Assembly (NCBI RefSeq): GCF_009557055.1
Contig: NZ_CP045649.1
Coordinates: forward strand, 3,323,501 to 3,387,500
Length of the DNA: 64,000 nucleotides
DNA from: Nocardioides sp. dk884
GTDB lineage: Bacteria; Actinomycetota; Actinomycetes; Propionibacteriales; Nocardioidaceae
Direction: 5' to 3'
The translations under genes and the position numbers were made by a program. The notes under the pieces were generated by a model. The model had not been told where the DNA came from. It made no database searches and worked only from the letters and a program-made list of their open reading frames with translations. Numbering within the stretch: the first letter of the stretch is position 1; each line of letters begins with the position of its first letter. Shown here one piece after another: positions 48,209 to 62,002 of the stretch.

Positions 48209-49981
48209 GTGCCGGAGAGCAAGCCGTTGCAGAAGGTTCTCATCGCCAACCGCGGTGAGATCGCAGTCCGGGTCATCCGCGCGTGCAAGGACGCCGGGAT
48301 CGGGAGCGTGGCGGTCTACGCCGAGCCCGACCGCGACGCAGTGTTCGTCCGCATGGCCGACGAGGCCCACTCGCTGCAGGGAGCGACCCCCGCGGAGTCC
48401 TACCTCGACATCGAGAAGATCATCGCGGTCGCGAAGAAGTCCGGCGCCGACTCGGTGCACCCGGGCTACGGCTTCCTCGCCGAGAACGCCCAGTTCGCCC
48501 AGGCCGTCCTCGACGCCGGGCTGATCTGGATCGGCCCGTCCCCCGAGGCGATCGACGCCCTGGGCGACAAGGCCAAGGCCAAGCACATCGCGCAGAAGGC
48601 CAACGCGCCCCTCGCGCCCGGCACCAAGGACCCGGTCAAGGACGCCGACGAGGTCGTCGAGTTCGCCAAGGCGAACGGCCTGCCGGTCGCGATCAAGGCC
48701 GTCTTCGGCGGCGGTGGCCGCGGCCTCAAGGTCGCCCGCACGCTCGAGGAGATCCCCGACGCCTACGAGTCCGCCGTCCGCGAGGCCGTCACCGCGTTCG
48801 GTCGCGGCGAGTGCCTGGTCGAGAAGTTCCTCGACCGCCCGCGCCACGTCGAGACCCAGTGCCTGGCCGACTCCCACGGCAACGTGGTCGTCATCTCGAC
48901 CCGCGACTGCTCGCTGCAGCGTCGCCACCAGAAGCTGGTCGAGGAGGCGCCCGCGCCGTTCCTGACCGACGAGCAGGTCGAGAAGCTCTACACCTCCTCC
49001 AAGGCGATCCTGCGCGAGGCCGGCTACGTCGGCGCCGGCACCTGCGAGTTCCTCGTGGCCGCCGACGGCACCATCTCCTTCCTCGAGGTCAACACCCGCC
49101 TCCAGGTCGAGCACTGCGTCTCCGAGGAGGTCACCGGGATCGACCTGGTCCGCGAGATGTTCCGCATCGCCGCGGGCGAGGAGCTCGGGTACGACGACCC
49201 GGAGATCCACGGCCACTCCATCGAGTTCCGCATCAACGCCGAGGACGGCGGCCGCAACTTCATGCCGGCCCCCGGCACCCTCACCGAGTGGGCGCCGCCG
49301 CAGGGCCCCGGCATCCGCGTCGACGGTGGCTACGAGAAGGGCGAGACCATCCCGGGCTCGTTCGACTCCCTCATCGCCAAGCTCGTCGTCACCGGCCGCG
49401 ACCGCACCCAGGCGCTGGAGCGCTCGCGCCGCGCCCTGGCCGAGTTCAAGGTCGACGGCATGCCCACGGTCATCCCGTTCCACGCCACCGTGGTGGAGGA
49501 CCCGGCGTTCATCGGTGACGGCGAGAAGTTCGACGTCTACACGACCTGGATCGAGACCGACTTCGACAACCAGATCCAGCCGTACGCCGGCGACACCCCC
49601 GACGCCCCCGAGGCCGAGGACCGCCACACCGTCGTCGTCGAGGTCGGCGGGCGCCGCCTCGAGGTCGTCGTGCCCGGCGGGCTCGGCTCCATCGGCGGCG
49701 GCGCGACCAACGGCGCCAAGAAGCCGAAGCGCGCGGCGGGCAAGAAGGCCGGCGCCGCGGTCAGCGGCGACGCCGTGGCCAGCCCGATGCAGGGCACGAT
49801 CGTCAAGATCGCCGTCGAGGAGGGCCAGGAGGTCGCCGAGGGCGACGTCGTGGTCGTCATGGAGGCGATGAAGATGGAGCAGCCGCTCAAGGCCCACAAG
49901 GCCGGCACCGTGACCGGGCTCAAGGCCGAGGTCGGCGCCACCGTCAGCAACGGCGAGGTCATCTGCGAGATCAAGGACTGA
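48209..49981 (+). CDS. accA3: Biotinylated acyl-CoA carboxylase alpha subunit
   Basis: 590 residues. Biotin carboxylase with [30 protein letters not shown], the ATP-grasp G-G-G-G-R-G-L and [12 protein letters not shown]. After a Lys/Ala-rich linker comes a biotinyl domain with E-A-M-K-M, whose Lys is the biotin site. It carboxylates biotin with ATP and bicarbonate for the beta subunit (37389) and probably other AccD proteins. GTG at 48209 with AGGAG at good distance. The duplicated membrane cassette follows after 29 bases in the same direction. Confidence 0.94.
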
Positions 49982-50010
49982 GCGATCCGCCTCTCGGGTA
50001 GTGACCGGCG

Positions 50011-51258
50011 GTGAACTCCGGCCCGCCGGCACCCCAGCCGCGTGACGACGAGCCCCTCGACGCCCCCACCTGGAGCGTCGAGGGGCTCGCCGCCGCCTTG
50101 CGCGAGGACCCCGTGATCGTCCAGGAGATCATGGGCAACGGGCAGCGCGACGCCGTCGACGACGCCCTCACCGAGCTCATCGACGGGGCCGACTTCCCGG
50201 TGTACGTCGCCCTGGTGCAGTCCCCCGGCGGGTTCGCCGACGACCGGCCCGAGGACGAGCTGGCCTCCCTGCTGCACGCCGAGATCGGCGAGGACGGGCT
50301 CTACGTCGTCTCGCTGAACCCCGACTTCGGCCACCTCGGCTGGCAGACGTACGGCGCCGAGGCCCCCGGAAAGTGGGACATCTACGACGTCAACGCGCCG
50401 TACGCCGACGACGCCTCGCCCAGCGCGGCCGGCGCGGCCGCCGAGCTGGTCGCGACCGCCCTCAACGACGCCGAGCCGCTGCCCGATGACCAGCTCGCGG
50501 AGTACCGCACCGGCGATCTCTGGGTGAACCGCGGCAGCACCCTCAGCGAGGACATCAGCGCACCGACCGAGGGCACCTACGCGGTGGTCGCCACCGGGCT
50601 GGGCGTCGGGGTGGCGATCGTCGCGTGGTTCGTGCTGCGCACCATCGCCCGCTGGCGTGAGCTCGCGCCCGGCACCGCCGTCGCCCGAGGCATCCCCACC
50701 GGCACCCGTCCCGACACCGTCGCGGACACCCCCGCCGCGCCGACGGCACAGGACGCGCGCCGCCGCGCCGAGAAGGAGCTGTCGGTCCTCGACCGCGCGC
50801 TGCTGCGACGCTCCGCCACCGGTCTGGACCCGACCGACGAGCAGCGCCTCGACGGCTCCCGCACCGCCGCCCGCACCCTGCTCGACACGGGTGAGGAGCG
50901 CGATGCCGACCTGCTCGAGTCCCTCGGCGCCCTGGTGCTGGTCCGCACCGCTCAACGACTGCTCGACCAGCCGAGCGCGGCGTACCGGCCCTGCTTCTTC
51001 AACCCCTGGCACGGGGAGGGCACCGCCCGGGTGGCCGCCCCCGTCGGCACCGGCGACGAGGTCGACCTGCCCGCGTGCGGGCGGTGCCGGCGCGCCCAGT
51101 CCCGGCCCGAGCTGGCCGACCCGCTGGTCGTGCGCGGCCGGCTGCGACGTCTGCGCCCCTACTGGGAGGGCGACGACGTGTGGGCGCGCACCGGCTTCGG
51201 CGCGATCAGCGACGACCTGTGGCGCACCGTGCTCGAGGACCGGCGGGCCACCCGATGA
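50011..51258 (+). CDS. Cassette protein A, copy 1: membrane protein with cytoplasmic Cx5H/CxxC module
   Basis: 415 residues, not recognised as a named family. Residues 22-110 form an alpha/beta-looking domain (LREDPVIVQEIMGNG, FPVYVALVQS, E-I-G-E-D-G-L-Y-V-V-S). One helix follows at about 189-209, and R-T-I-A-R-W after it puts the C-terminus inside. The inner half is helical (255-320), then C328-x5-H334, C356-x-x-C359 and W-A-R-T-G-F-G (391-397), a probable zinc site. No signal peptide; N-out orientation is inferred from charges. GTG 50011, with TAGTGA seven bases upstream. The stop overlaps protein B. Confidence 0.75.
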   Translation: MNSGPPAPQPRDDEPLDAPTWSVEGLAAALREDPVIVQEIMGNGQRDAVDDALTELIDGADFPVYVALVQSPGGFADDRPEDELASLLHAEIGEDGLYVVSLNPDFGHLGWQTYGAEAPGKWDIYDVNAPYADDASPSAAGAAAELVATALNDAEPLPDDQLAEYRTGDLWVNRGSTLSEDISAPTEGTYAVVATGLGVGVAIVAWFVLRTIARWRELAPGTAVARGIPTGTRPDTVADTPAAPTAQDARRRAEKELSVLDRALLRRSATGLDPTDEQRLDGSRTAARTLLDTGEERDADLLESLGALVLVRTAQRLLDQPSAAYRPCFFNPWHGEGTARVAAPVGTGDEVDLPACGRCRRAQSRPELADPLVVRGRLRRLRPYWEGDDVWARTGFGAISDDLWRTVLEDRRATR

Positions 51259-52037
51259 GCGCCCGCAAGCGCCCCCGCTCGGGCCATCCCGGGCGGACGC
51301 ACGCCAACGCCAAGAAGGCGTCCACCGACAACCTCCTCGACCTCGCCCGGGGCGGGGTCGATCTGACCGGACGCCACGTCGTCGACCTCGGGCTCGCCTG
51401 CCTGCTCGGCCTCGGCGGCGCCGCGCTCGGCGTCCACCTGGTCGACCAGCGCGGCGAGCAGACCGCGCGCGAGCCCGGTGACCGGGTGCAGGGGGCGATC
51501 GCCGCGCTGCGCGAGGACCCCGTGTACGTCGCGCCCGACGGTCGCGACATGGTCTCGGTCGAGGGCGAACAGCGCCTCGAGCGGCTCATCGCCGACGCAC
51601 CCGTGCCGGTGCACGTGCTGGTCTGGGAGTCCAGCAAGCAGGCCGGTCCCGAGCCGTACTCGTTCACCCTGCCCGACCAGCTGGCGACCGAGCTCGGCGA
51701 GCCGGGCATCTACATCGTCTGGCAGGGCCCCGAGGACGTCGGCGTCGACGTGCCCGAGGGCAAGCGGCTCGGGTGGGAGGTGCCCGACCTCGAGAACGTC
51801 GGCGACGCCGAGACCCAGCTGAGCGACTTCATCACCGGGCTGCCCGCCAGCGGCGCCCTCGAGGACGCCGAGTCCAACGACTACTGGGGCGGGGTCGGCG
51901 GCGGCATTGCCGCCGCCCTGCTGATGGTCGCGGCCCCCACCGCGGCCGGCGCCTACCTGCTCACCGGGCTGGCCCGCCTCGCCACCGGCCGCCCGTTCCG
52001 CAACCGCCCCCGCCCGGCCTCGAAGGGAACCCGATGA
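51255..52037 (+). CDS. Cassette protein B, copy 1: two-helix membrane protein
   Basis: 260 residues of unknown function. A basic cytoplasmic head (1-40) and helix 1 (about 42-61) lead to the shared external domain: G-D-R-V-Q-G-A-I, LREDPVYVAPDG, IADAPVPVHVLVWESS, E-P-G-I-Y-I-V. A glycine-rich second helix (211-238; W-G-G-V-G-G-G-I-A-A) returns to the inside. It lacks the Cys/His module of A and C. ATG 51255 overlaps the stop of A; its stop overlaps the C start. The Gly-rich helix would suit packing against partner helices. Confidence 0.72.
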   Translation: MSARKRPRSGHPGRTHANAKKASTDNLLDLARGGVDLTGRHVVDLGLACLLGLGGAALGVHLVDQRGEQTAREPGDRVQGAIAALREDPVYVAPDGRDMVSVEGEQRLERLIADAPVPVHVLVWESSKQAGPEPYSFTLPDQLATELGEPGIYIVWQGPEDVGVDVPEGKRLGWEVPDLENVGDAETQLSDFITGLPASGALEDAESNDYWGGVGGGIAAALLMVAAPTAAGAYLLTGLARLATGRPFRNRPRPASKGTR

Positions 52038-53269
52038 CCGAGCCCAACCCCGTCGCCGAGATCGTGGCGGACCTGCGCGAGGACGGCGTCCACATCGGCC
52101 CAGGCATGGCGCGGCACGTGGACCCCGCCGAGGAGGCGGCCATCGAGGCGGCCGTCGCCCGCATCGACATACCCGTCCACGTGGTGGTCCGGGGGCTCGA
52201 GGAGGACGACATGTTCGCCGGTAGCGCCGGGGACATGCTCGTCCGGGCCCGCACCGAACTGGGGACCGACGGCTGGTTCGTCGCCCCCAAGTACATCTTC
52301 TCGACCGGGGACTACTCGCTCGAGATCGAAGAGTGGACCGGGGACGCGGGCCGCCTCGACCTGCCGTACGACGCCACGGGCATCGCGGAGTGGCTGCACC
52401 CCGACGACCTCGGCGCCGGCCTGGTCGCGCTGACCACGGCGATCGCCGACGGCACCGTCACGGCGAAGGCTGCCGAGGCCCGTGAGGCCTTCGACGCCCG
52501 ACCCGACGCCACCACGACGACGACGGACACGGCCTCCGATCCCGATTCGGGCTGGGACGGTGCGGCCGGCCCGGTGGTCGGCGGTTTCGCGGTGACCGCG
52601 CTCGCGGTGACCGCCGTCCTCCTCATCCGTCTGTTCCGCCGCCGCGCAGGGGGCGGCGCCCTCGGGCGCGGCTCCGGGCGCGCCGCTCAGCGCTTCACGC
52701 TCCCGCCGTCGGTGCTGGAGCGGGTGCGCAGCGCCGACGACGCGCGGCTGCGCTCCCGGGCCGAGCAGGACGTCCTCGCGCTCGGCGAGCGCATCGACGG
52801 CACCCAGCTGACCAGGACGGCGAACGCCGACGCCTGGCAGGCGGCGCTGGACCACTACGACGCCGCCCGCCGGGTCCTGGGCCGCGACCCCGCCGCGTCG
52901 CCGGACCTGCTCGACGTGATCGGGGCGATCGTCCTGGCCGCCCGGGGCGGGGCAGCCCTCGACGCCGCCGGACGGGGCCGGGCCTTCTCCCCCGACGCCC
53001 CCTGCTTCCTCAACCCGCTGCACGGCAAGGCGGGGGCCCGGCGCAAGCTCGACGACGCCGGCCGCGCCCTCGACGTACCGGTGTGCGCGGCGTGCGGCAA
53101 GGACCTCGCCGCCGGGCGCCGCCCCGACATCCTCGACGTGGTGCGCGACGACGTGCCGGTGCACTACTTCGCCACCGACGCCGAGCCGTGGGCCTCGACC
53201 GGGTACGGCGCGCTGGAGCCGGACCTGCTGAGCGCCCTGCACGCCCGCCGGCCTCGCGGGCGCCGCTGA
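52034..53269 (+). CDS. Cassette protein C, copy 1: membrane protein with cytoplasmic Cx5H/CxxC module
   Basis: 411 residues, unnamed. Outer domain 8-105 (LREDGVHIGPGMARHVDP, I-P-V-H-V-V-V-R, L-G-T-D-G-W-F-V-A-P), a Thr/Asp-rich stalk (155-173), a helix at about 179-200, then R-L-F-R-R-R. The inner part has a helical block (F-T-L-P-P-S-V-L, A-L-D-H-Y-D-A-A-R-R-V-L), C324-x5-H330, C351-A-A-C354 and WASTGYG (386-392). The same order occurs in the copy-2 protein at 55326. ATG 52034 overlaps the stop of B. Confidence 0.75.
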   Translation: MTEPNPVAEIVADLREDGVHIGPGMARHVDPAEEAAIEAAVARIDIPVHVVVRGLEEDDMFAGSAGDMLVRARTELGTDGWFVAPKYIFSTGDYSLEIEEWTGDAGRLDLPYDATGIAEWLHPDDLGAGLVALTTAIADGTVTAKAAEAREAFDARPDATTTTTDTASDPDSGWDGAAGPVVGGFAVTALAVTAVLLIRLFRRRAGGGALGRGSGRAAQRFTLPPSVLERVRSADDARLRSRAEQDVLALGERIDGTQLTRTANADAWQAALDHYDAARRVLGRDPAASPDLLDVIGAIVLAARGGAALDAAGRGRAFSPDAPCFLNPLHGKAGARRKLDDAGRALDVPVCAACGKDLAAGRRPDILDVVRDDVPVHYFATDAEPWASTGYGALEPDLLSALHARRPRGRR

Positions 53270-53326
53270 GCGGACCGCCCGCTGCAGGCACCTCGACCTC
53301 GTGCGGAAGCCGTCCGAGCGCCCGGC

Positions 53327-53332
53327 TAGCGT
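53327..53332 (+). promoter_or_regulatory. -10 element before cassette copy 2
   Basis: TAGCGT with its last T eight bases before the ATG of the small upstream ORF at 53340; predicts a transcript that begins at that ATG. Confidence 0.55.
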
Positions 53333-53339
53333 GTGCGCC

Positions 53340-53408
53340 ATGTCCTCCCAGGCGCCGGTGACGAGCCGTGACGCGGTGCTCGGGCTGAGCGGTCCAGCAC
53401 ACCGATGA
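53340..53408 (+). CDS. 22-codon leaderless upstream ORF coupled to cassette protein A'
   Basis: A small ORF starts at the ATG at 53340, eight bases after a TAGCGT box, and runs 22 codons (MSSQAPVTSRDAV at its head) to the TGA at 53406-53408. That stop overlaps the ATG of the next gene at 53405 (ATGA). There is no other ribosome-binding site for the following gene. A leaderless ribosome could translate this peptide and re-initiate. The peptide is not recognised. It may simply deliver ribosomes, or it may sense translation state. Confidence 0.5.
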   Translation: MSSQAPVTSRDAVLGLSGPAHR

Positions 53409-54628
53409 TCCCAGCCGATGTCGCGTACCCGGACACCGTGGAGGCGCTCGCCGAGGCGCTGCGCACCGAGCCGGTCATCGTCCACGAGACGCTCGGCGGT
53501 GGCGACACCGCCGGGGCCCTCGAGCGGATCAGCCGGCTCGTGGAGCGGATGCCGTTCCGCACCTTCGTCGCCGTCATCGAGGCGCCGCCGGAGGTGGACG
53601 CGGGCATCGAGTCCGGCCACTACCTCGCCACCGCGCTGAGCCGGCGCATCGGCGAGCCAGGGCTCTACGTGGTCGCCACCGAGGACGCGGTCACCGGCGT
53701 CCAGGTGGTGGGCACCGACTGGGACCAGACGCACTTCTCCCTGCAGGCCGACATCGACCGGCAGCTGGTGACCGACGAGGCTGGGGTCACGATCCTCGCC
53801 CCCACGGTCGAGGCCGAGACGATCCTGCGCACCGCCTTGGCCGAGCCGGCGGGGCCGGACGACGAGCGGCCCTGGAGGGACCCGACGCTCGACGAGGAGA
53901 CCGTCGAGGACCTCGTCGCCCGGGAGCAGGCGCTGGCGGCGTACGAGACCCCCGCCTGGTCCGAGGAGTACGCCGCGCCGGCGCCGCCCGTGGACTGGAG
54001 CGCCGACAAGCGCTGGATGGTCGGGTCCATGGTCGCCGGTCTGCTGCTCGCGGTGCTGCTGCAGTCCCTGCGCGGCTGGCCGGGCTGGCGCCGCCGCCCG
54101 GCCCCGGTCCCGGAGGTCCCCGCACCCGTCGTCCTGCCCCCGGACCTCGCCGAGGTCCGCGCGGAGGCGGACACCGGCCTCACCGAGCTGGCGGAGGCCC
54201 TCGTGAACGCTCCCGCGGGGCCGAGCCAGGTCCAGGCCGCGCTCGCCCGGGAGACGGCCGAGCCGCTGCTGCGCTCCGAGGACGTGCGCGACGTGGTCGG
54301 TGCCCTGGTGCTGGTCCGAGCCGGGCGGCACGCCCTGGTCAGCTCGGACCCCTACCGGCCGTGCTTCGTCAACGCCATACACGGCGCCGCGGAGCAGGTC
54401 GCCCAGTGGCAGTTCGGCGACGCCGAGATCGAGGTGCCGGTCTGCGCCGCGTGCCACCGCGCGTTCGTCAGCGAGCAGCCGCCGAGCGCCCTGGTGGTCC
54501 GGCGCGGCGGCCGGCTCCGGCCGTACTACGAGGAGGACAGCGTGTGGGCCCGCACCGGGTACGGCAGCCTCACCACGGACCTGGCCGACCTGGCCCGCCA
54601 GGTCGCCGGCGAGCGGCGGCTCCGGTGA
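53405..54628 (+). CDS. Cassette protein A', copy 2: membrane protein with cytoplasmic Cx5H/CxxC module
   Basis: 407 residues, equivalent to the protein at 50011. The outer domain aligns by eye (LAEALRTEPVIVHETLGGGD, F-R-T-F-V-A-V-I-E-A, E-P-G-L-Y-V-V-A). A longer acidic stalk follows, then a helix at about 203-223 and R-G-W-P-G-W-R-R-R. The inner module has C320-x5-H326, C347-A-A-C350 and WARTGYG (381-387), with the same spacing as in copy 1. Start fixed by the overlap with the upstream ORF. The stop overlaps protein B'. Confidence 0.75.
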   Translation: MIPADVAYPDTVEALAEALRTEPVIVHETLGGGDTAGALERISRLVERMPFRTFVAVIEAPPEVDAGIESGHYLATALSRRIGEPGLYVVATEDAVTGVQVVGTDWDQTHFSLQADIDRQLVTDEAGVTILAPTVEAETILRTALAEPAGPDDERPWRDPTLDEETVEDLVAREQALAAYETPAWSEEYAAPAPPVDWSADKRWMVGSMVAGLLLAVLLQSLRGWPGWRRRPAPVPEVPAPVVLPPDLAEVRAEADTGLTELAEALVNAPAGPSQVQAALARETAEPLLRSEDVRDVVGALVLVRAGRHALVSSDPYRPCFVNAIHGAAEQVAQWQFGDAEIEVPVCAACHRAFVSEQPPSALVVRRGGRLRPYYEEDSVWARTGYGSLTTDLADLARQVAGERRLR

Positions 54629-55329
54629 GCGGGCGCCGCCGGCTGCGACCGGCCACCGCGGGACTCGCGCTCGTCGTCTCCCTGGGCGCCGGCCTGCTCG
54701 CCGGCGCCGTGCCCGGCCACCACCCGACGCCGGAGCCGGACCCCTACGACCAGGCAGTCCTGGCCGCGGCCGCTGCCTCCACTCCGGGCGACCGGGTGCA
54801 GGCCGCGATCGACGCCGTGCAGGAGACCGGTCTGCACATCGGCCCCGAGCTGCGCGGCGAGCTCGGCGCGGACGAGGTGGACCGGATCGAGGAGATCATC
54901 GCCGACGCACCGGTGCCGCTGTTCGTGGTCTGGTGGGAGGAGAGCTGGCAGGCGGGGTATTACCCGCCCGAGAGTGCGATGGACCAGCTGCGCGCCGGCG
55001 TCTTCCGCGAGGGGTTCTACGCGGTCGTGTCGCCGGGACGCCCGCCGTACCTCGCGGCGCTCGGCTACCAGGAGCCGCGGATCGAGGCCGACGGCACCGG
55101 CCGACCCGCTGCCGCCCTGACCCGGGTGGTCACCGAGCTGGCGGACACCGAGGCCGCCCGGCCCGGGGAGCCCCGACCCGGCTCGGACGACTGGGGCGGC
55201 GCCGGCGGCGGCCTCGCGGCCGGGTTGCTCTTCGCGCTCCTCGGCTACCTGGGGCTGCTGCTCGTGTTCGGCGTCCTGGGCGCCATGGCGTCCTCCCGCT
55301 CGCCCCGCACCCTGGAGGCCCGGCCATGA
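54625..55329 (+). CDS. Cassette protein B', copy 2: two-helix membrane protein
   Basis: 234 residues. Helix 1 at about 9-29 has a short basic head; the outer domain repeats G-D-R-V-Q-A-A-I, G-L-H-I-G-P-E-L-R and IIADAPVPLFVVWWEESWQ. The second helix (190-220) is glycine-rich like that of copy 1 (W-G-G-A-G-G-G-L-A-A-G). Trp-rich patch WWEESWQ is notable in the outer domain. GTG 54625 overlaps the stop of A'. Function unknown; by position part of a complex with A' and C'. Confidence 0.72.
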   Translation: MSGRRRLRPATAGLALVVSLGAGLLAGAVPGHHPTPEPDPYDQAVLAAAAASTPGDRVQAAIDAVQETGLHIGPELRGELGADEVDRIEEIIADAPVPLFVVWWEESWQAGYYPPESAMDQLRAGVFREGFYAVVSPGRPPYLAALGYQEPRIEADGTGRPAAALTRVVTELADTEAARPGEPRPGSDDWGGAGGGLAAGLLFALLGYLGLLLVFGVLGAMASSRSPRTLEARP

Positions 55330-56513
55330 CCTGGATCGACGAGCCGCTGCTGAAGGAGATCGAGGCCGAGCTCGGCGAGGACGGGGTCTGGGTCGCGCCC
55401 GACCTGCGCGCGGAGATCTCCCCCGCGCAGGAGGCGCGGCTCGAGGCCGCCGTCGCCGAGGCCGCCACCCCCACCTACGTCACGCTCGTCGAGCTCGACC
55501 ACGACGATCTGACCGGCGGCAGCCCGGAGCAGCTGGCCGCCATGATCCGGGACGACACCGGCCGCTCGGGGTTCTACGTCGTGCCGGAGACACGCATCGA
55601 CGACGAGCCGTACCGCCTCGAGATCGTGTCCTACCCCGACGACGCCGGGCTCTTCACCGCCTCCGCGGTCGCGCAGGCCGAGCACCCGAAGGACCTCGGC
55701 GCCCAGACGCTGCGGGCCCTGGAGCTGCTGGAGTCCGGCGACGCCGACCGGCTCTACGACGAGCTGAACGGCACCGGGACCGGCACCGGGTCGGGGACGG
55801 GGACCGTCCCGACCCCGGCTGCTCCGGCCGACGACAGCGGCGGCCCCGGCGTCACCGGCGTCCTGACCGCGGTGCTGGTCGTGGCCGTCGCGGTGGTCAT
55901 CGGCGTACGCCGCCGGCGGCCACGCGCCGTGCCTCCGTCCGCCGCCGGGTCGCCCTTCACCCTGCCGCCGGCGGTGCTGAGCACCGTCCGCGCCGCCGAG
56001 GACCGACGCAACGAGGACAGTGCGCACGCCGATGTGCTCGCCCTCGGCGAGGCCATCGACGCCGCGCACCTCGACCCGCGCCACGCCGCCTCGCTGCCGG
56101 CCTGGCAGGCCGCGCTGGACCACTACGACGTCGCCCGCCGGATCCTCGACCGCGAGCACTCCCCCGCCGACGCGGTCGGCGCGATCGTGCTGGCCGGCCG
56201 CGGCAGGTCGGCGCTCGAGGCGGCCGTGCGCGGCCGCGGCTGGACCCCGGAGCCCGGGTGCTACTTCCACCCGCTGCACAACGGCCCCGTCGCCCCGGCG
56301 CGCTGGCACGACGGCGACGCCACGACCCGGGTGCCGGCCTGCACGGGGTGCACGCGCGCCCTCGAGGCCGGAGACGAACCGGCCGACGTCTTGGACTTCG
56401 TGGCCGACGGCCGGCCCGCCCACTACTTCCGCCTCGACCTCGGCCCGTGGAGCAGCACCGGCTACGGGTCCCTGGATCCCGACCTCCTCGGCCGGCTGAC
56501 CGCCCGCGGCTGA
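55326..56513 (+). CDS. Cassette protein C', copy 2: membrane protein with cytoplasmic Cx5H/CxxC module
   Basis: 395 residues, equivalent to the protein at 52034. Outer domain 8-103 (GEDGVWVAPDLRAEISP, T-P-T-Y-V-T-L-V-E, R-S-G-F-Y-V-V-P), a Gly/Thr stalk (149-160), a helix at about 176-194 and R-R-R-R. The inner half repeats F-T-L-P-P-A-V-L, A-L-D-H-Y-D-V-A-R-R-I-L, C312-x5-H318, C339-T-G-C342 and WSSTGYG (375-381). ATG 55326 overlaps the stop of B'. Last gene of the array; a PH-domain pair follows with its own promoter. Confidence 0.75.
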   Translation: MTWIDEPLLKEIEAELGEDGVWVAPDLRAEISPAQEARLEAAVAEAATPTYVTLVELDHDDLTGGSPEQLAAMIRDDTGRSGFYVVPETRIDDEPYRLEIVSYPDDAGLFTASAVAQAEHPKDLGAQTLRALELLESGDADRLYDELNGTGTGTGSGTGTVPTPAAPADDSGGPGVTGVLTAVLVVAVAVVIGVRRRRPRAVPPSAAGSPFTLPPAVLSTVRAAEDRRNEDSAHADVLALGEAIDAAHLDPRHAASLPAWQAALDHYDVARRILDREHSPADAVGAIVLAGRGRSALEAAVRGRGWTPEPGCYFHPLHNGPVAPARWHDGDATTRVPACTGCTRALEAGDEPADVLDFVADGRPAHYFRLDLGPWSSTGYGSLDPDLLGRLTARG

Positions 56514-56531
56514 GCACCGGTGCCCGCCCCC

Positions 56532-56537
56532 TAGGCT
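56532..56537 (+). promoter_or_regulatory. -10 element of the PH-domain pair
   Basis: TAGGCT, last T seven bases before the GTG at 56544. Confidence 0.5.
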
Positions 56538-56543
56538 CGGGGC

Positions 56544-57053
56544 GTGCCCGACCTGCGCGATCCCCGTGAACGGGTCTGCCCCCGCGCACGCCTGATGTGG
56601 TGGTGCACCCACGCCATCGGCGCCGCGGTGCTGCTCGCCGCCCTGGTCGCGGGCGTCCTCCTCACCGACACCCTGCGCTGGTGGCTGGTCCCGCCGGTCG
56701 CCGTCGTCCTCACGGCGTACGCCGTGGCCGTGCCGCAGTGGCGCTACGTCGTGCACCGCTGGGAGGTCACCGACACGGCCGTCTACACCCAGACCGGGTG
56801 GTGGGCGCGCGAGCGCCGGATCGCGCCGATCTCGCGGGTGCAGACCGTCGACCTGGAGCAGGGCGCGATCGCGCGTCTCTTCGGGCTGGCCACGGTCACC
56901 GTGACCACCGCCTCCGCCGCCGGCGCGCTGGCGATCCCGGGTCTCGACGCCGAGGCTGCCCGCGCCCTCGTCGACGAGCTGACCTTGCGCGCCGACGCCA
57001 CCCAGGCCGGGAGCCGGCCCTCGCCCCATCGCGCGGGGGACGACGCGACGTGA
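56544..57053 (+). CDS. YdbS-like PH-domain membrane protein
   Basis: 169 residues: two close helices (about 25-65), then the bacterial PH (bPH2) domain Y-V-V-H-R-W-E-V-T-D-T-A-V-Y-T-Q-T-G-W, I-S-R-V-Q-T-V-D-L-E-Q-G and a hydrophobic end. In Bacillus the YdbS/YdbT pair affects the envelope; that pair is encoded here in the same order. Likely forms a membrane complex with the next protein. GTG start, leaderless promoter. Confidence 0.82.
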   Translation: MPDLRDPRERVCPRARLMWWCTHAIGAAVLLAALVAGVLLTDTLRWWLVPPVAVVLTAYAVAVPQWRYVVHRWEVTDTAVYTQTGWWARERRIAPISRVQTVDLEQGAIARLFGLATVTVTTASAAGALAIPGLDAEAARALVDELTLRADATQAGSRPSPHRAGDDAT

Positions 57054-58525
57054 ACGGCGAGACCGACGGCTGGCAGCGCCTCGACCGCCGGATGCTGCTG
57101 GTCAACCCGCTGCAGGAGCTGGTGAAGTTCCTGCCCGCGCTGCTCGGGCTGCTGGTCGCGGGCACCGCGATCGGCGGGCGCGGCTGGCAGCTGCTCGCCG
57201 TGGCGGTGCCGGTACTGCTCGGCGTCGTCCGCTATCTCACCACCCGGTTCCGCGTCGCCGAGGGGCGTGTCGAGCTGCGCCGCGGCCTGCTCAACCGGCG
57301 CACCCTGGCCGTGCCGGTCGACCGGGTCCGCACCGTCGACCTCACCGCCGGCCCGGTGCACCGGCTGCTCGGCCTGGTCACCGTGCGCATCGGCACCGGC
57401 ACCGCCTCCTCGCGCGAGGAGGACGCCCTCGACCTCGACGGGCTGCCGGGCGCCACCGCGCGCACCCTGCGCGCCGCGCTGCTGCGCGCCCGCGACCCGC
57501 TGCCGGGCGGGACCGACGGCGTACCCGGCCCCGCCCCGACCGCGCACACGGTGCTGCGCCTGGACCCCGCCTGGGCTCGCTACGCCCCGCTCACCGGCAC
57601 CGGGCTGGTGCTGCTCGCCGGTGTGGTCGGCGGCGCGTTCCAGCTGGCCACGACCCTCGGGCTGGAGCTGAGCCTGCGTGCCGAGGACCTGCCCGGCACC
57701 GACCTGCCCGTCGCCGGGTGGCTGGCCGTGGTCGCGGGGCTCGTCGTCGTGCTCCTGGTCGTCTCGGCGCTCGCGGTGGCGGCGTACCTGCTCACCAGCT
57801 GGGGGCTGGTCCTCACCCACCGGCCCGGGGCCTGGCACCTGGTCCGTGGCCTGCTCACCACCCGCGAGACCACGCTGGACGACGACCGGGTGGCCGGGGT
57901 GGTCCTGCACGAGCCGGCCGGTCTGCGGCTGGCCGGGGCCGCGCACCTGTCCGCGATCGTGACCGGCCTGGACCGCAGCCGCCCCGGCAGCGCCACCCTG
58001 GTCCCCCCGGCGCCCACGGCGGTCGCCGCCGGGGTGGGCGGCGAGGTCGTCGGCACGTCCGCCCCGCTGAGCGCCCCGCTCGTCGCGCACGGCCCGGCGG
58101 CGACGCGGCGGCGCTGGTCCCGCGCGCTCGGCCCGGCGGCGCTGGTCGCCGGGCTCGGGGTCGTGGCGTGGCTGGCCCTGCCGGTCGGACGCTGGGGTCT
58201 GACCCTGGCCGTGCTCGCCCTCCCGGTCGCCGCGGTGCTGGCCCACGACCGGTCCCGCGCGCTCGGTCACGCCCTCGTCGAGGGTCACCTGGTCGCCCGC
58301 TCCGGGAGCCTGACCCGCGCCCGCGAGGTGCTCGCCACCCGCCACGTCATCGGCTGGACCTTCCGCGACACCGTGATCCAGCGCCGGGCCGGCCTGCTCA
58401 CGCTCACCGCGACCACCGCCGGAGGAGACCAGCAGGTCACCGTCCCCGACGTCCCACGCGGGCGCGCCGTGCACCTGGCCGACGACGCGGTGCCCGGCCT
58501 GCTGCACCAGTTCCTCGCCCCCTGA
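57050..58525 (+). CDS. YdbT-like protein with tandem PH domains
   Basis: 491 residues. At least three bPH2 repeats, each with a helix pair followed by an F-R-V-A-E-G-R-V-E-L-R-R-G-type strand or a weaker version (V-P-V-D-R-V-R-T-V-D-L; then L-D-D-D-R-V-A-G-V-V-L; then A-T-R-H-V-I-G-W-T). Six to eight membrane helices in total. GTG at 57050 overlaps the YdbS-like stop. Its function in the envelope is unknown. Confidence 0.8.
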   Translation: MNGETDGWQRLDRRMLLVNPLQELVKFLPALLGLLVAGTAIGGRGWQLLAVAVPVLLGVVRYLTTRFRVAEGRVELRRGLLNRRTLAVPVDRVRTVDLTAGPVHRLLGLVTVRIGTGTASSREEDALDLDGLPGATARTLRAALLRARDPLPGGTDGVPGPAPTAHTVLRLDPAWARYAPLTGTGLVLLAGVVGGAFQLATTLGLELSLRAEDLPGTDLPVAGWLAVVAGLVVVLLVVSALAVAAYLLTSWGLVLTHRPGAWHLVRGLLTTRETTLDDDRVAGVVLHEPAGLRLAGAAHLSAIVTGLDRSRPGSATLVPPAPTAVAAGVGGEVVGTSAPLSAPLVAHGPAATRRRWSRALGPAALVAGLGVVAWLALPVGRWGLTLAVLALPVAAVLAHDRSRALGHALVEGHLVARSGSLTRAREVLATRHVIGWTFRDTVIQRRAGLLTLTATTAGGDQQVTVPDVPRGRAVHLADDAVPGLLHQFLAP

Positions 58526-58590
58526 GCCGGGGCCCCGTCCACCGGCTGAGCAGCATCCGGGCGGTGCCGGGGACGGCCGCTCGAGCCCGA

Positions 58591-58596
58591 TAGCGT
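58591..58596 (+). promoter_or_regulatory. -10 element of pyc
   Basis: TAGCGT, last T eight bases before the ATG at 58604; the in-frame GTG at 58595 lies inside the box and is rejected as start. Confidence 0.6.
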
Positions 58597-58603
58597 GGGC
58601 CAC

Positions 58604-61600
58604 ATGTTCTCCAAGGTGCTGGTGGCAAACCGCGGCGAGATCGCGGTCCGAGCGTTCCGCGCGGCGTACGAGCTGAACGCCCGGACGGTGGCGGTCTTCC
58701 CCTACGAGGACCGCGGGTCCGAGCACCGACTGAAGGCCGACGAGGCCTACGAGATCGGCGAGCGCGGCCACCCGGTGCGCGCCTACCTCGACCCCGAGGG
58801 CATCGTCGCGACGGCCGTGCGCGCCGGCGCCGACGCGATCTACCCCGGCTACGGGTTCCTCTCCGAGAACCCCGCGCTCGCCGAGGCCTGCGCCAACGCC
58901 GGCATCACCTTCGTCGGCCCGAGCGCCGAGGTGCTGGAGCTGACCGGCAACAAGGCCCGCGCGATCGCGGCCGCCAAGGCGGCCGGTGTCCCGACGCTGG
59001 CCAGCGTCGAGCCCTCGACCGACGTGGACTCCCTCGTCGAGGCCGCCTCCGCGCTGCCCTACCCCCTCTTCGTCAAGGCGGTCGCCGGCGGCGGCGGCCG
59101 CGGCATGCGCCGCGTCGACGACCCGGCCAAGCTGCGCGAGGCCGTGGAGACCTGCATGCGCGAGGGCGAGGCCGCCTTCGGCGACCCGACCGTCTTCATC
59201 GAGCAGGCGGTGGTCGACCCGCGCCACATCGAGGTGCAGATCCTCGCCGACGGCGCCGGCAACGTCATCCACCTCTTCGAGCGCGACTGCTCGGTGCAGC
59301 GTCGCCACCAGAAGGTCGTCGAGATCGCCCCGGCCCCCAACCTCGACCCCGACCTGCGCGCGCGCATGTGCGCCGACGCGGTGCGCTTCGCCCGCGAGAT
59401 CGGCTACCGCAACGCCGGCACCGTCGAGTTCCTCCTCGACCCCGCCGGCAACTACGTCTTCATCGAGATGAACCCCCGCATCCAGGTCGAGCACACCGTG
59501 ACCGAGGAGGTCACCGACGTCGACCTCGTGCAGGCCCAGCTGCGCATCGCCGCCGGCGAGACCCTGGCCGACCTCGGTCTGAGCCAGGACACGATCGTGC
59601 TGCGCGGAGCCGCGCTGCAGTGCCGGATCACCACCGAGGACCCGGCCAACAACTTCCGCCCGGACACCGGGATGATCACCACCTACCGCTCCCCCGGCGG
59701 CGCTGGCGTGCGCATCGACGGCGGTACGACCTACACCGGCGCCGAGGTGTCCGCGCACTTCGACTCGATGCTGGCCAAGCTCACCTGCCGCGGGCGCACC
59801 TTCGAGAAGGCCGTCGAGCGGGCCCGCCGCGCGATCGCGGAGTTCCGCATCCGCGGCGTCTCCACCAACATCGCGTTCCTCCAGGCCGTGCTCGCCGACC
59901 CCGACTTCATCGCCGGCAACGTCACGACCTCCTTCATCGAGACCCACCCCCAGCTGCTCCAGGCGCGCCGCTCCGGCGACCGCGGCACCAAGCTGCTGAC
60001 CTACCTCGCCGAGGTCACGGTCAACCAGCCGCACGGCCCGGCGCCGGTCAAGGTGGACCCGGCCAGCAAGCTGCCGGCCACCAACCTCGAGGTCCCCGCG
60101 CCCGACGGCACCCGCCAGCTGCTGCTCGAGGTCGGCCCCGCGGAGTTCGCGCGCCGCCTGCGCGCCCAGGACCGGGTCGCCGTCACCGACACCACCTTCC
60201 GCGACGCCCACCAGTCGCTGCTCGCCACCCGGGTGCGCACCCGCGACCTGCTGACGGTCGCGCCGCACGTCGCGCGCACCACCCCCGAGCTGTGGTCGCT
60301 GGAGGCGTGGGGCGGCGCGACGTACGACGTGGCGCTGCGCTTCCTCGGCGAGGACCCGTGGGAGCGGCTCTCGGCGCTGCGCCAGGCGGTGCCCAACATC
60401 TGCCTGCAGATGCTGCTGCGCGGGCGCAACACCGTCGGCTACACGCCGTACCCGACCAAGGTCACCGACGCCTTCGTGCAGGAGGCGGCGGCCAGCGGCC
60501 TGGACGTGTTCCGCATCTTCGACGCGCTCAACGACGTCGAGCAGATGCGTCCCGCGATCGACGCGGTGCTGGCCACCGGCACGAGCGTCGCGGAGGTCGC
60601 GCTGTGCTACACCGGCGACCTGTCGGACCCGGACGAGCAGATCTACACCCTCGACTACTACCTGCGCCTGGCCGAGAAGATCGTCGACGCGGGCGCCCAC
60701 GTGCTGGCGATCAAGGACATGGCCGGCCTGCTGCGCGCCCCGGCCGCGCGTCGCCTGGTCACCGCGCTGCGGGCCAACTTCGACCTGCCGGTCCACCTGC
60801 ACACCCACGACACCCCCGGCGGCCAGCTCGCGACGCTGACCGCCGCGATCGACGCCGGCGTCGACGCGGTCGACGCCGCCTGCGCGGCCGTGGCCGGCAC
60901 CACCTCCCAGCCGGCGCTGTCCGCGCTGGTCTCGGCGACCGACCACTCCGAGCGCGAGACCGGCCTGTCGCTGGCCGCGGTCAACGCGCTGGAGCCGTAC
61001 TGGGAGGCGACCCGCCGCGTCTACGCGCCGTTCGAGTCGGGCCTGCCCGCCCCCACCGGCCGGGTCTACCGCCACGAGATCCCCGGCGGCCAGCTCTCCA
61101 ACCTGCGCCAGCAGGCGATCGCGCTGGGCCTGGGCGAGAAGTTCGAGCAGATCGAGGACATGTACGCCGCGGCGAACGACATCCTCGGCAACGTCCCGAA
61201 GGTGACGCCGTCCTCGAAGGTGATCGGCGACCTCGCGCTCTCCCTCGTCGCGGCCGACGCCGACCCCGCCGAGTTCGCGGAGAACCCGCAGAGGTTCGAC
61301 ATCCCCGACTCGGTCATCGGTTTCCTCAGCGGCGAGCTGGGCGACCCGCCCGGCGGCTGGCCCGAGCCGTTCCGCACCAAGGCGCTCGAGGGGCGCAGCT
61401 GGAAGATGCAGGACAAGGAGCTCACCGCCGAGCAGGAGGAGGCGCTCGACGGTACCCCCGGGGAGAGCCGTCCGCTGCGCCGGCGCACTCTCAACGAGCT
61501 GCTGTTCCCCGCGCCGACCCGCTCGTTCAACGAGTCGCGGGCGACGTACGGCGACATCTCGGTGCTGCCGACCCTGGACTACCTCTACGGCCTGCGCTTC

Positions 61601-62002
61601 GGCGAGGAGCACCGCGTGGACCTCGAGCCGGGCGTCACCCTGCTGCTCGGCGTGCAGGCGATCAGCGAGCCCGACGAGCGCGGCTTCCGCACCGTCCTGG
61701 CGCTGATCAACGGTCAGCTGCGCCCGGTGAGCGTGCGCGACACCAGCGTCGCCTCCGAGGCGGCCACCGCCGAGAAGGCCGACTCCTCCCAGCCCGGCCA
61801 CGTCGCGGCGCCGTTCCAGGGCGTGGTGAGCGTCGTCGTCGTGGCCGGCGACAAGGTCTCCGCCGGTGACACGGTCGCCACCATCGAGGCGATGAAGATG
61901 GAGGCGGCGATCACCGCGCCGATCAGCGGCACCGTCGAGCGGCTGGCGATCACCGGCACCCAGTCCGTCGAGGGCGGCGACCTGGTGCTGGTCGTCTCCT
62001 GA
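58604..62002 (+). CDS. pyc: Pyruvate carboxylase
   Basis: 1132 residues, full length. Order: biotin carboxylase ([45 protein letters not shown]), then carboxyltransferase (DTTFRDAHQSLLATRVRT, D-V-F-R-I-F-D-A-L-N-D). A tetramerisation region follows, then the biotin domain with E-A-M-K-M-E-A-A near the C-terminus. It makes oxaloacetate from pyruvate, refilling the TCA cycle. ATG at 58604 by the leaderless rule. The ligase for its biotin is encoded at 36516. Confidence 0.97.
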   Translation: MFSKVLVANRGEIAVRAFRAAYELNARTVAVFPYEDRGSEHRLKADEAYEIGERGHPVRAYLDPEGIVATAVRAGADAIYPGYGFLSENPALAEACANAGITFVGPSAEVLELTGNKARAIAAAKAAGVPTLASVEPSTDVDSLVEAASALPYPLFVKAVAGGGGRGMRRVDDPAKLREAVETCMREGEAAFGDPTVFIEQAVVDPRHIEVQILADGAGNVIHLFERDCSVQRRHQKVVEIAPAPNLDPDLRARMCADAVRFAREIGYRNAGTVEFLLDPAGNYVFIEMNPRIQVEHTVTEEVTDVDLVQAQLRIAAGETLADLGLSQDTIVLRGAALQCRITTEDPANNFRPDTGMITTYRSPGGAGVRIDGGTTYTGAEVSAHFDSMLAKLTCRGRTFEKAVERARRAIAEFRIRGVSTNIAFLQAVLADPDFIAGNVTTSFIETHPQLLQARRSGDRGTKLLTYLAEVTVNQPHGPAPVKVDPASKLPATNLEVPAPDGTRQLLLEVGPAEFARRLRAQDRVAVTDTTFRDAHQSLLATRVRTRDLLTVAPHVARTTPELWSLEAWGGATYDVALRFLGEDPWERLSALRQAVPNICLQMLLRGRNTVGYTPYPTKVTDAFVQEAAASGLDVFRIFDALNDVEQMRPAIDAVLATGTSVAEVALCYTGDLSDPDEQIYTLDYYLRLAEKIVDAGAHVLAIKDMAGLLRAPAARRLVTALRANFDLPVHLHTHDTPGGQLATLTAAIDAGVDAVDAACAAVAGTTSQPALSALVSATDHSERETGLSLAAVNALEPYWEATRRVYAPFESGLPAPTGRVYRHEIPGGQLSNLRQQAIALGLGEKFEQIEDMYAAANDILGNVPKVTPSSKVIGDLALSLVAADADPAEFAENPQRFDIPDSVIGFLSGELGDPPGGWPEPFRTKALEGRSWKMQDKELTAEQEEALDGTPGESRPLRRRTLNELLFPAPTRSFNESRATYGDISVLPTLDYLYGLRFGEEHRVDLEPGVTLLLGVQAISEPDERGFRTVLALINGQLRPVSVRDTSVASEAATAEKADSSQPGHVAAPFQGVVSVVVVAGDKVSAGDTVATIEAMKMEAAITAPISGTVERLAITGTQSVEGGDLVLVVS

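Follow-up and report, generated by a model that had tools for sequence, protein, structure and literature searches.

A leaderless-type 22-codon reading frame before the second A-B-C cassette of a Nocardioides genome, and its probable origin as a recombination scar between pyc and accA3

The closest described systems are those of the mycobacteria, where short ORFs with leaderless starts were reported in the hundreds (Shell et al. 2015, PMC4633059); for the leaderless "coupled" small ORFs among them, some of the peptides are not conserved, and the delivery of ribosomes to the next gene was proposed. The delivery of ribosomes by short ORFs is also discussed in a review (PMC12548453). In M. tuberculosis, the dependence of PPE2 on the translation of an upstream ORF, uPPE2, was shown, with termination–reinitiation at an AUGA overlap carrying ribosomes onto a gene that lacks an SD (PMC11260477). 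Two further comparisons are with an engineered design in Corynebacterium glutamicum, in which a leaderless promoter is followed by a fore-cistron taken from the 5' end of a gene and overlapping the next one (PMC10367133), and with the amino-acid attenuators of the Actinobacteria, in which a short ORF precedes an operon (PMC1262725).

The locus considered here was found in a Nocardioides genome (Nocardioides sp. dk884), in a stretch of 64,000 nt (hereafter, the window) that lies inside a single 4.28-Mb contig. A mini-ORF stands between two cassettes of three genes each, in the order accA3, cassette 1, cassette 2, two PH-domain genes and pyc, with the following features:

48209–49981, plus strand: accA3, a biotin carboxylase gene from which the tail of the mini-ORF is presumed to derive; gene call and gene-end comparison
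50011–53269, plus strand: first cassette, A1 (50011–51258), B1 (51255–52037) and C1 (52034–53269); gene calls
53296–53378, plus strand: part homologous to pyc, comprising the promoter and the first 13 pyc codons; genus search and start comparisons
53318–53358, plus strand: 41-bp block identical in the relative G181, with the −10 box, the spacer, the start codon and the codons up to 6
53327–53332, plus strand: leaderless-type −10 box, TAGCGT, 7 nt before ATG 53340
53340–53408, plus strand: mini-ORF of 22 codons, MSSQAPVTSRDAVLGLSGPAHR, whose TGA (53406–53408) overlaps ATG 53405 (ATGA)
53385–53404, plus strand: stretch presumed to remain from the end of accA3, on the basis of a test with the corresponding G181 sequence
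53405–54628, plus strand: A2, 407 aa, with a TPM-like domain, a predicted membrane helix and a conserved C-H-C-C; no SD
54625–55329, plus strand: B2, 4-nt overlap with A2; gene call
55326–56513, plus strand: C2, 4-nt overlap with B2; gene call
58591–62002, plus strand: pyc, with a similar leaderless start (TAGCGT at 58591–58596, 7 nt, ATG 58604); the mini-ORF head is presumed to stem from a gene of this kind

The box, the ATG, the 22 codons and the TGA over the ATG of A2 had all been given in a preliminary description, and all are borne out by the sequence; the box was there placed eight bases before the ATG, which agrees with the 7 nt that lie between them, since the ATG begins at the eighth. 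The absence of any other ribosome-binding site before A2 was likewise correctly noted: SD-like matches upstream of 53405 reach 3 nt at most. This lack of an SD is ordinary among the starts of this genome, where 192 of the 396 classified genes of the sample described below have a match shorter than 4 nt (sum over classes). Overlaps of 4 nt, such as those between neighbouring genes within each cassette, are common too (81 of 282 same-strand gene gaps).

The locus thus resembles the mycobacterial class (PMC4633059) in having an ORF of 5–50 codons (22 here) with an RTG at a leaderless distance from a −10 box (TAGCGT-7-ATG) and a TGA over the next RTG (ATGA, 53405–53408), while the counterpart in G181, with its stop 16 nt upstream of the gene, would fall into the "uORF" class of the same paper. 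It differs from the mycobacterial ORFs in that it belongs to Nocardioides and is known from sequence alone, in that the overlap is present in one genome, and in that its origin can be traced to pyc and accA3. With uPPE2-PPE2, it shares an out-of-frame short ORF, an AUGA overlap and a gene without an SD; however, uPPE2 carries both an SD and a B12 riboswitch (PMC11260477), whereas here the start is of the leaderless type and there is no riboswitch match. The Corynebacterium glutamicum design is engineered, with an SD and a TAATG overlap (PMC10367133), whereas this arrangement is natural, without an SD and with ATGA; and, unlike the Actinobacteria attenuators (PMC1262725), it has neither a codon run nor a terminator that could be found. 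The kind of element is already known, and the new part is its traced origin; among open papers, searched by title and the start of the abstract, none dealt with an origin of such leaders from gene remnants.

The motifs TANNNT and AAGGAGGTGA are general background. The frequency of leaderless starts was estimated in a sample of this genome made up of the window and 20 stretches of 20 kb (464 kb), in which 424 genes were called and 16 near the ends of stretches were dropped, leaving 408 predicted starts. TANNNT lies 6–8 nt before 61 of these 408 starts, while none of the remaining spacings from 0 to 24, taken singly, is seen more than twice; this excess indicates that leaderless genes are common in this genome. 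When alternative starts are allowed, there are 88 gene-start hits at 6–8 nt versus 0–8 at six control spacings. No such excess was found in the sample for short ORFs that are not genes: 10 intergenic ones have the signal spacing versus 7–11 at the six controls, and 3 of those ending between −60 and +40 of a gene start have it versus 0–3. The layout of the mini-ORF alone is not above chance, and it is conservation and homology, as judged from the sequences, that make it a credible element. A generic sigma-70 scan for −35 and −10 boxes found no promoter from 49900 to 58700. An 8-bp inverted repeat with one mismatch (53318–53325 and 53348–53355) was rejected as an operator palindrome, since a repeat of at least this quality is found at 9 of 61 leaderless starts.

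Conservation was followed in 215 genomes of the genus. Relatives of A2 (E ≤ 1e-60) are present in 7 of them, that of dk884 included, with identities of 85% in G181 (Nocardioides sp. zg-DK7169), 74% in G108, 56% in G289 and 44–47% in three others. G181 keeps the promoter and the start of the mini-ORF and is the only one of the three relatives with a close A2 to keep the element; the mini-ORF was found in these 2 genomes only, and its absence from G108, despite a close A2 there, counts against the origin proposed below. The 41-bp block is the longest identical run in the 6 gaps compared between the two genomes, the next being 30 and 27 nt, against a background of 73.6% average identity in gaps and 81.8% at third codon positions. 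The identity takes in a further 16 nt after the ATG, up to and including codon 6. The 22-nt core of the −10 box and start is exact in 2 of the 215 genomes (dk884 and G181). With up to 3 mismatches, it is found in 47 of 215, compared with 13 for a backwards control (counted from the table), and this recurrence marks it as a general leaderless start motif; since other genes in the genus have this motif too, likeness within it proves nothing by itself, which also counts against the proposed origin.

Beyond the block, the two frames diverge after about codon 13, where G181 has 20 nt more. Its mini-ORF also has 22 codons (MSSQAPAAHRDAVSATDRETTD) and ends 16 nt before A2; the rest of the peptide, the frame and the exact overlap are not conserved there. 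The preliminary description took a lack of codon-level conservation in relatives as refuting its reading, and such conservation stops at about codon 13, the two frames being set apart by the 20-nt indel. It also proposed to compare length and overlap: the length of 22 codons is indeed common to both, but the ends differ and the exact overlap is not kept. The comparison of dk884 with G181 does not support a function for the peptide or for the exact overlap. What G181 retains is the start, and the nearness of the stop to A2. All four genomes compared (dk884, G181, G108 and G289) have a TGA 16 nt upstream of A2; it is the stop of C1 in G108 and of accA3 in G289, and in dk884 it is a TGA (53386–53388) out of frame with the mini-ORF. 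None of these four 16-nt spacers contains an SD core. At more distant loci, where the start codons are only guessed, the spacing is not kept and gaps vary widely.

The first half of the mini-ORF resembles the beginning of pyc. In a search of the genus with the 135-bp gap between C1 and A2, one match stands out after the gap itself and G181: 73 bp in G108 (53296–53368, 79%, E 1.2e-11), which fall on the promoter and first codons of pyc. The next match has an E value of 2.8e-6 over 33 bp, and 44 of the 215 genomes have some match at E ≤ 0.001. When the first 36 nt of the mini-ORF were compared with 1237 candidate starts of its own genome, pyc ranked first, with 24 of 36 identical (next, 21; mean 11.7, sd 2.7). 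Local alignment against 88 leaderless starts again gave pyc as the best, both for the mini-ORF of dk884 (score 26; next, 16) and for that of G181 (27; next, 19). Over the 50 nt upstream, agreement with the G108 pyc is 36, compared with 11–23 for 14 other pyc heads and with 28 for the best of the 1237 own starts. However, the strong upstream match is to the pyc of G108 and not to the resident one, for which the likeness is weak (22 of 50, or 21 of 45 where other starts reach 24); these weak values count against an origin from pyc. Promoter and head are nevertheless homologous, and in frame from the ATG. Between the mini-ORF and the G108 pyc head (39 nt), there are 3, 6 and 2 differences at codon positions 1, 2 and 3; the two pyc genes, compared over 1122 nt, have 16, 15 and 81. 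Such a pattern fits a stretch that is no longer maintained as pyc, but sequence unrelated to pyc would likewise differ mostly at positions 1 and 2. The tests of origin were set up after the match had been noticed. A shuffle null was discarded as too lenient because it broke the −10 motif, and the real-gene controls given above were used in its place.

The homology of the other end to accA3 is less strong. It was tested on the 3' end of the G181 mini-ORF because that of dk884 is out of frame: over 28 nt around the stop, the accA3 tail is the best of 423 gene ends, with 22 of 28 identical (next, 19), of which 3 letters are the TGA common to many genes. The 3' end is thus homologous to accA3 in G181, and the frame has been lost in dk884. 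The spacer of 16 nt from TGA to ATG is the same as between accA3 and A2 in G289.

Gene order and phylogeny bear on how such a junction could have arisen. In G289, A2 directly follows accA3, and the order accA3-A2-B2-C2 is also that of G269 and G304. The order in G182 is accA3-A1-B1-C1-PH-PH-pyc, with a gap between C1 and PH close to that between C2 and PH in dk884, and this suggests, from the sequences compared, that G182 has lost cassette 2. The first cassette of G182 is closer to that of dk884 than is G181's (A1 91% versus 79%), yet G182 lacks cassette 2, which was counted against the proposed route. A tree of 25 A proteins places A2 together with its G181 and G108 counterparts (100/100), joined next by that of G289 (94/93), and puts A1 in another clade, with the proteins of G182 and G181 (100/100); the order of the deepest splits is weak (66/75). 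The first cassette of G108, at 36–39% identity to that of dk884, is a third type. Cassette 1 was therefore not recently copied from cassette 2, and a simple recent tandem duplication was rejected; the two cassettes, spoken of as copies in the preliminary description, are not recent ones. A1 and A2 are old paralogs, which counts against regarding the recombination route as settled. The 135-bp gap has a single match in its own genome, itself, so that a mobile or repeated element was rejected too.

Nocardioides genomes differ in the type of A-B-C cassette that lies between accA3 and either cassette 2 or pyc, some having two in a row, and the types look as if they had been exchanged between species. 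Cassettes upstream of pyc with no PH match in between are present in G044, G160, G031 and G198, which makes a donor with that layout plausible. A longer pyc–accA3 hybrid between cassettes was not seen in 22 gene orders (dk884 and 21 others) from a collection described as covering about half of the species. Another observation is that in two loci (L025 and L027, of G246 and G209) an A-type gene without a nearby accA3 has a leaderless-type start of its own (TAGCCT, 6 nt, GTG).

We consider it rather probable that the mini-ORF is a recombination scar, made of a pyc head and an accA3 tail, that has turned into a leader for cassette 2. The entry of cassette 1 between accA3 and a resident cassette 2 would have joined the head to the tail; G181 would still read the fusion frame of 22 codons with its stop 16 nt before A2, and in dk884 the 20-nt indel would have altered the frame so that the stop now lies over the ATG of A2. 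RNA polymerase would start at or adjoining ATG 53340, ribosomes would load on the leaderless start, translate the 22 codons and stop at A2, and, because A2 has no SD, they would reinitiate there, the peptide being a by-product. The leaderless promoter probably drives cassette 2, and termination–reinitiation probably carries ribosomes into A2. The promoter that the preliminary description ascribed to the second cassette is favoured by its leaderless type, by the 41 bp kept in G181 and by the genome-wide spacing signal; the translational coupling that it raised, into a start without an SD, is supported as a possibility.

According to another explanation, which we regard as possible but rather unlikely, the block is a leaderless-type promoter and nothing else, the mini-ORF is of no consequence and translation of A2 starts independently, behind a 65-nt leader without an SD. 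This would fit the lack of conservation of peptide, frame and stop beyond about codon 13, the ordinariness of SD-less starts and the fact that non-gene short ORFs at the leaderless spacing are no commoner than at the controls; it would leave aside that the identical block continues past the ATG into the codons and that the stop stays near A2 in both genomes (16 nt or ATGA) despite the indel. That the box and frame are no more than the product of chance in GC-rich DNA, both cassettes being expressed by read-through that begins at accA3, is improbable in view of the 41-bp identity in G181 and of the homology to the leaderless-type promoter and head of pyc, even if short ORFs near gene starts show no clear excess at the signal spacing and no terminator-like site was found between C1 and A2.

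The same scan from C1 to A2, which requires a T run, bears on the attenuation by a short peptide that the preliminary description had put forward, and according to which translation of the mini-ORF would sense a metabolite or stall and so control the cassette. The position is like that of leader peptides, and this genome does have a leaderless leader peptide before leuS; however, besides the lack of a terminator-like site, the folding z-scores (0.24 and 0.61) are not unusual, the peptide MSSQAPVTSRDAVLGLSGPAHR has no run of codons for a single amino acid, its C-terminal half is not conserved and Rfam at gathering thresholds has no match there (it matched only two tRNAs, of which one lies in the window and the other in L078). 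Moreover, since the mini-ORF overlaps A2, there is no room for a terminator or antiterminator between leader and gene. Attenuation is therefore disfavoured, and we regard it as very improbable.

If the mini-ORF is indeed a recombination scar turned leader, it gives short leaderless ORFs a specific source, the stump of a gene at a point of recombination, and it predicts that the peptide is dispensable, unlike the start and the nearness of the stop. A tentative and rather doubtful extension is that leaderless promoters with their first codons are portable units, so that stumps left by recombination of the pyc/accA3 kind become coupling leaders through which a displaced cassette stays expressed; pyc and accA3 are both biotin carboxylases, and recombination between similar flanking genes would leave chimeric stumps. 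If true, this would be a general route of birth for many leaderless coupled small ORFs of the Actinobacteria.

Other leaderless-type mini-ORFs were observed in this genome. In L072 (minus strand, ATG 16696, near 1716696 of contig C1 of the dk884 genome, G000), one of 15 codons ends with GTGA over a protein-kinase gene; G181 has the same promoter and first codons, letter for letter, and although the length there differs by a net 9 nt (18 codons), frame and overlap are preserved. The mini-ORF was not seen at the G108 match. As far as sequence comparison can tell, this is better evidence for conserved coupling than the mini-ORF at 53340; with this as a second example, the mini-ORF at 53340 suggests that the leaderless coupled class extends to Nocardioides. 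In L078 (minus strand, ATG 8693, near 2908693), the leaderless-type peptide MCRTLLLS is followed by a hairpin and a T run and then by leuS; leuS attenuators have been predicted in Streptomyces (PMC1262725). This leader is present in 3 of the 4 genomes searched (G181, MCRTLLLS; G289, MWRTLLLT; G108, MRRPLLLT), with no match in G217. In L081 (minus strand, ATG 4019, near 3704019), a start–stop pair, ATG TGA, lies at a leaderless distance and 40 nt before the gene of an ABC-transporter ATPase; the matches in G108, G217 and G289 did not show it in this form.

As to the product of the first gene of cassette 2, the A, B and C proteins all stay below the cut-off for any Pfam or NCBIfam family, and Foldseek alone found no match for A2 in the PDB at E ≤ 0.001. 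The model of A2 has a mean pLDDT of 87.7 and a pTM of 0.51. On structural re-alignment, residues 9–170 align with AtTLP18.3, which we take to be a TPM-domain protein (135 residues aligned, 3.5 Å, Z 10.2), a Z score tied by unrelated helical bundles that match another part of A2. From sequence and model, we infer a membrane helix after the TPM-like part. C320, H326, C347 and C350 are invariant in 29 aligned A proteins, and this C-H-C-C set suggests a putative metal site.
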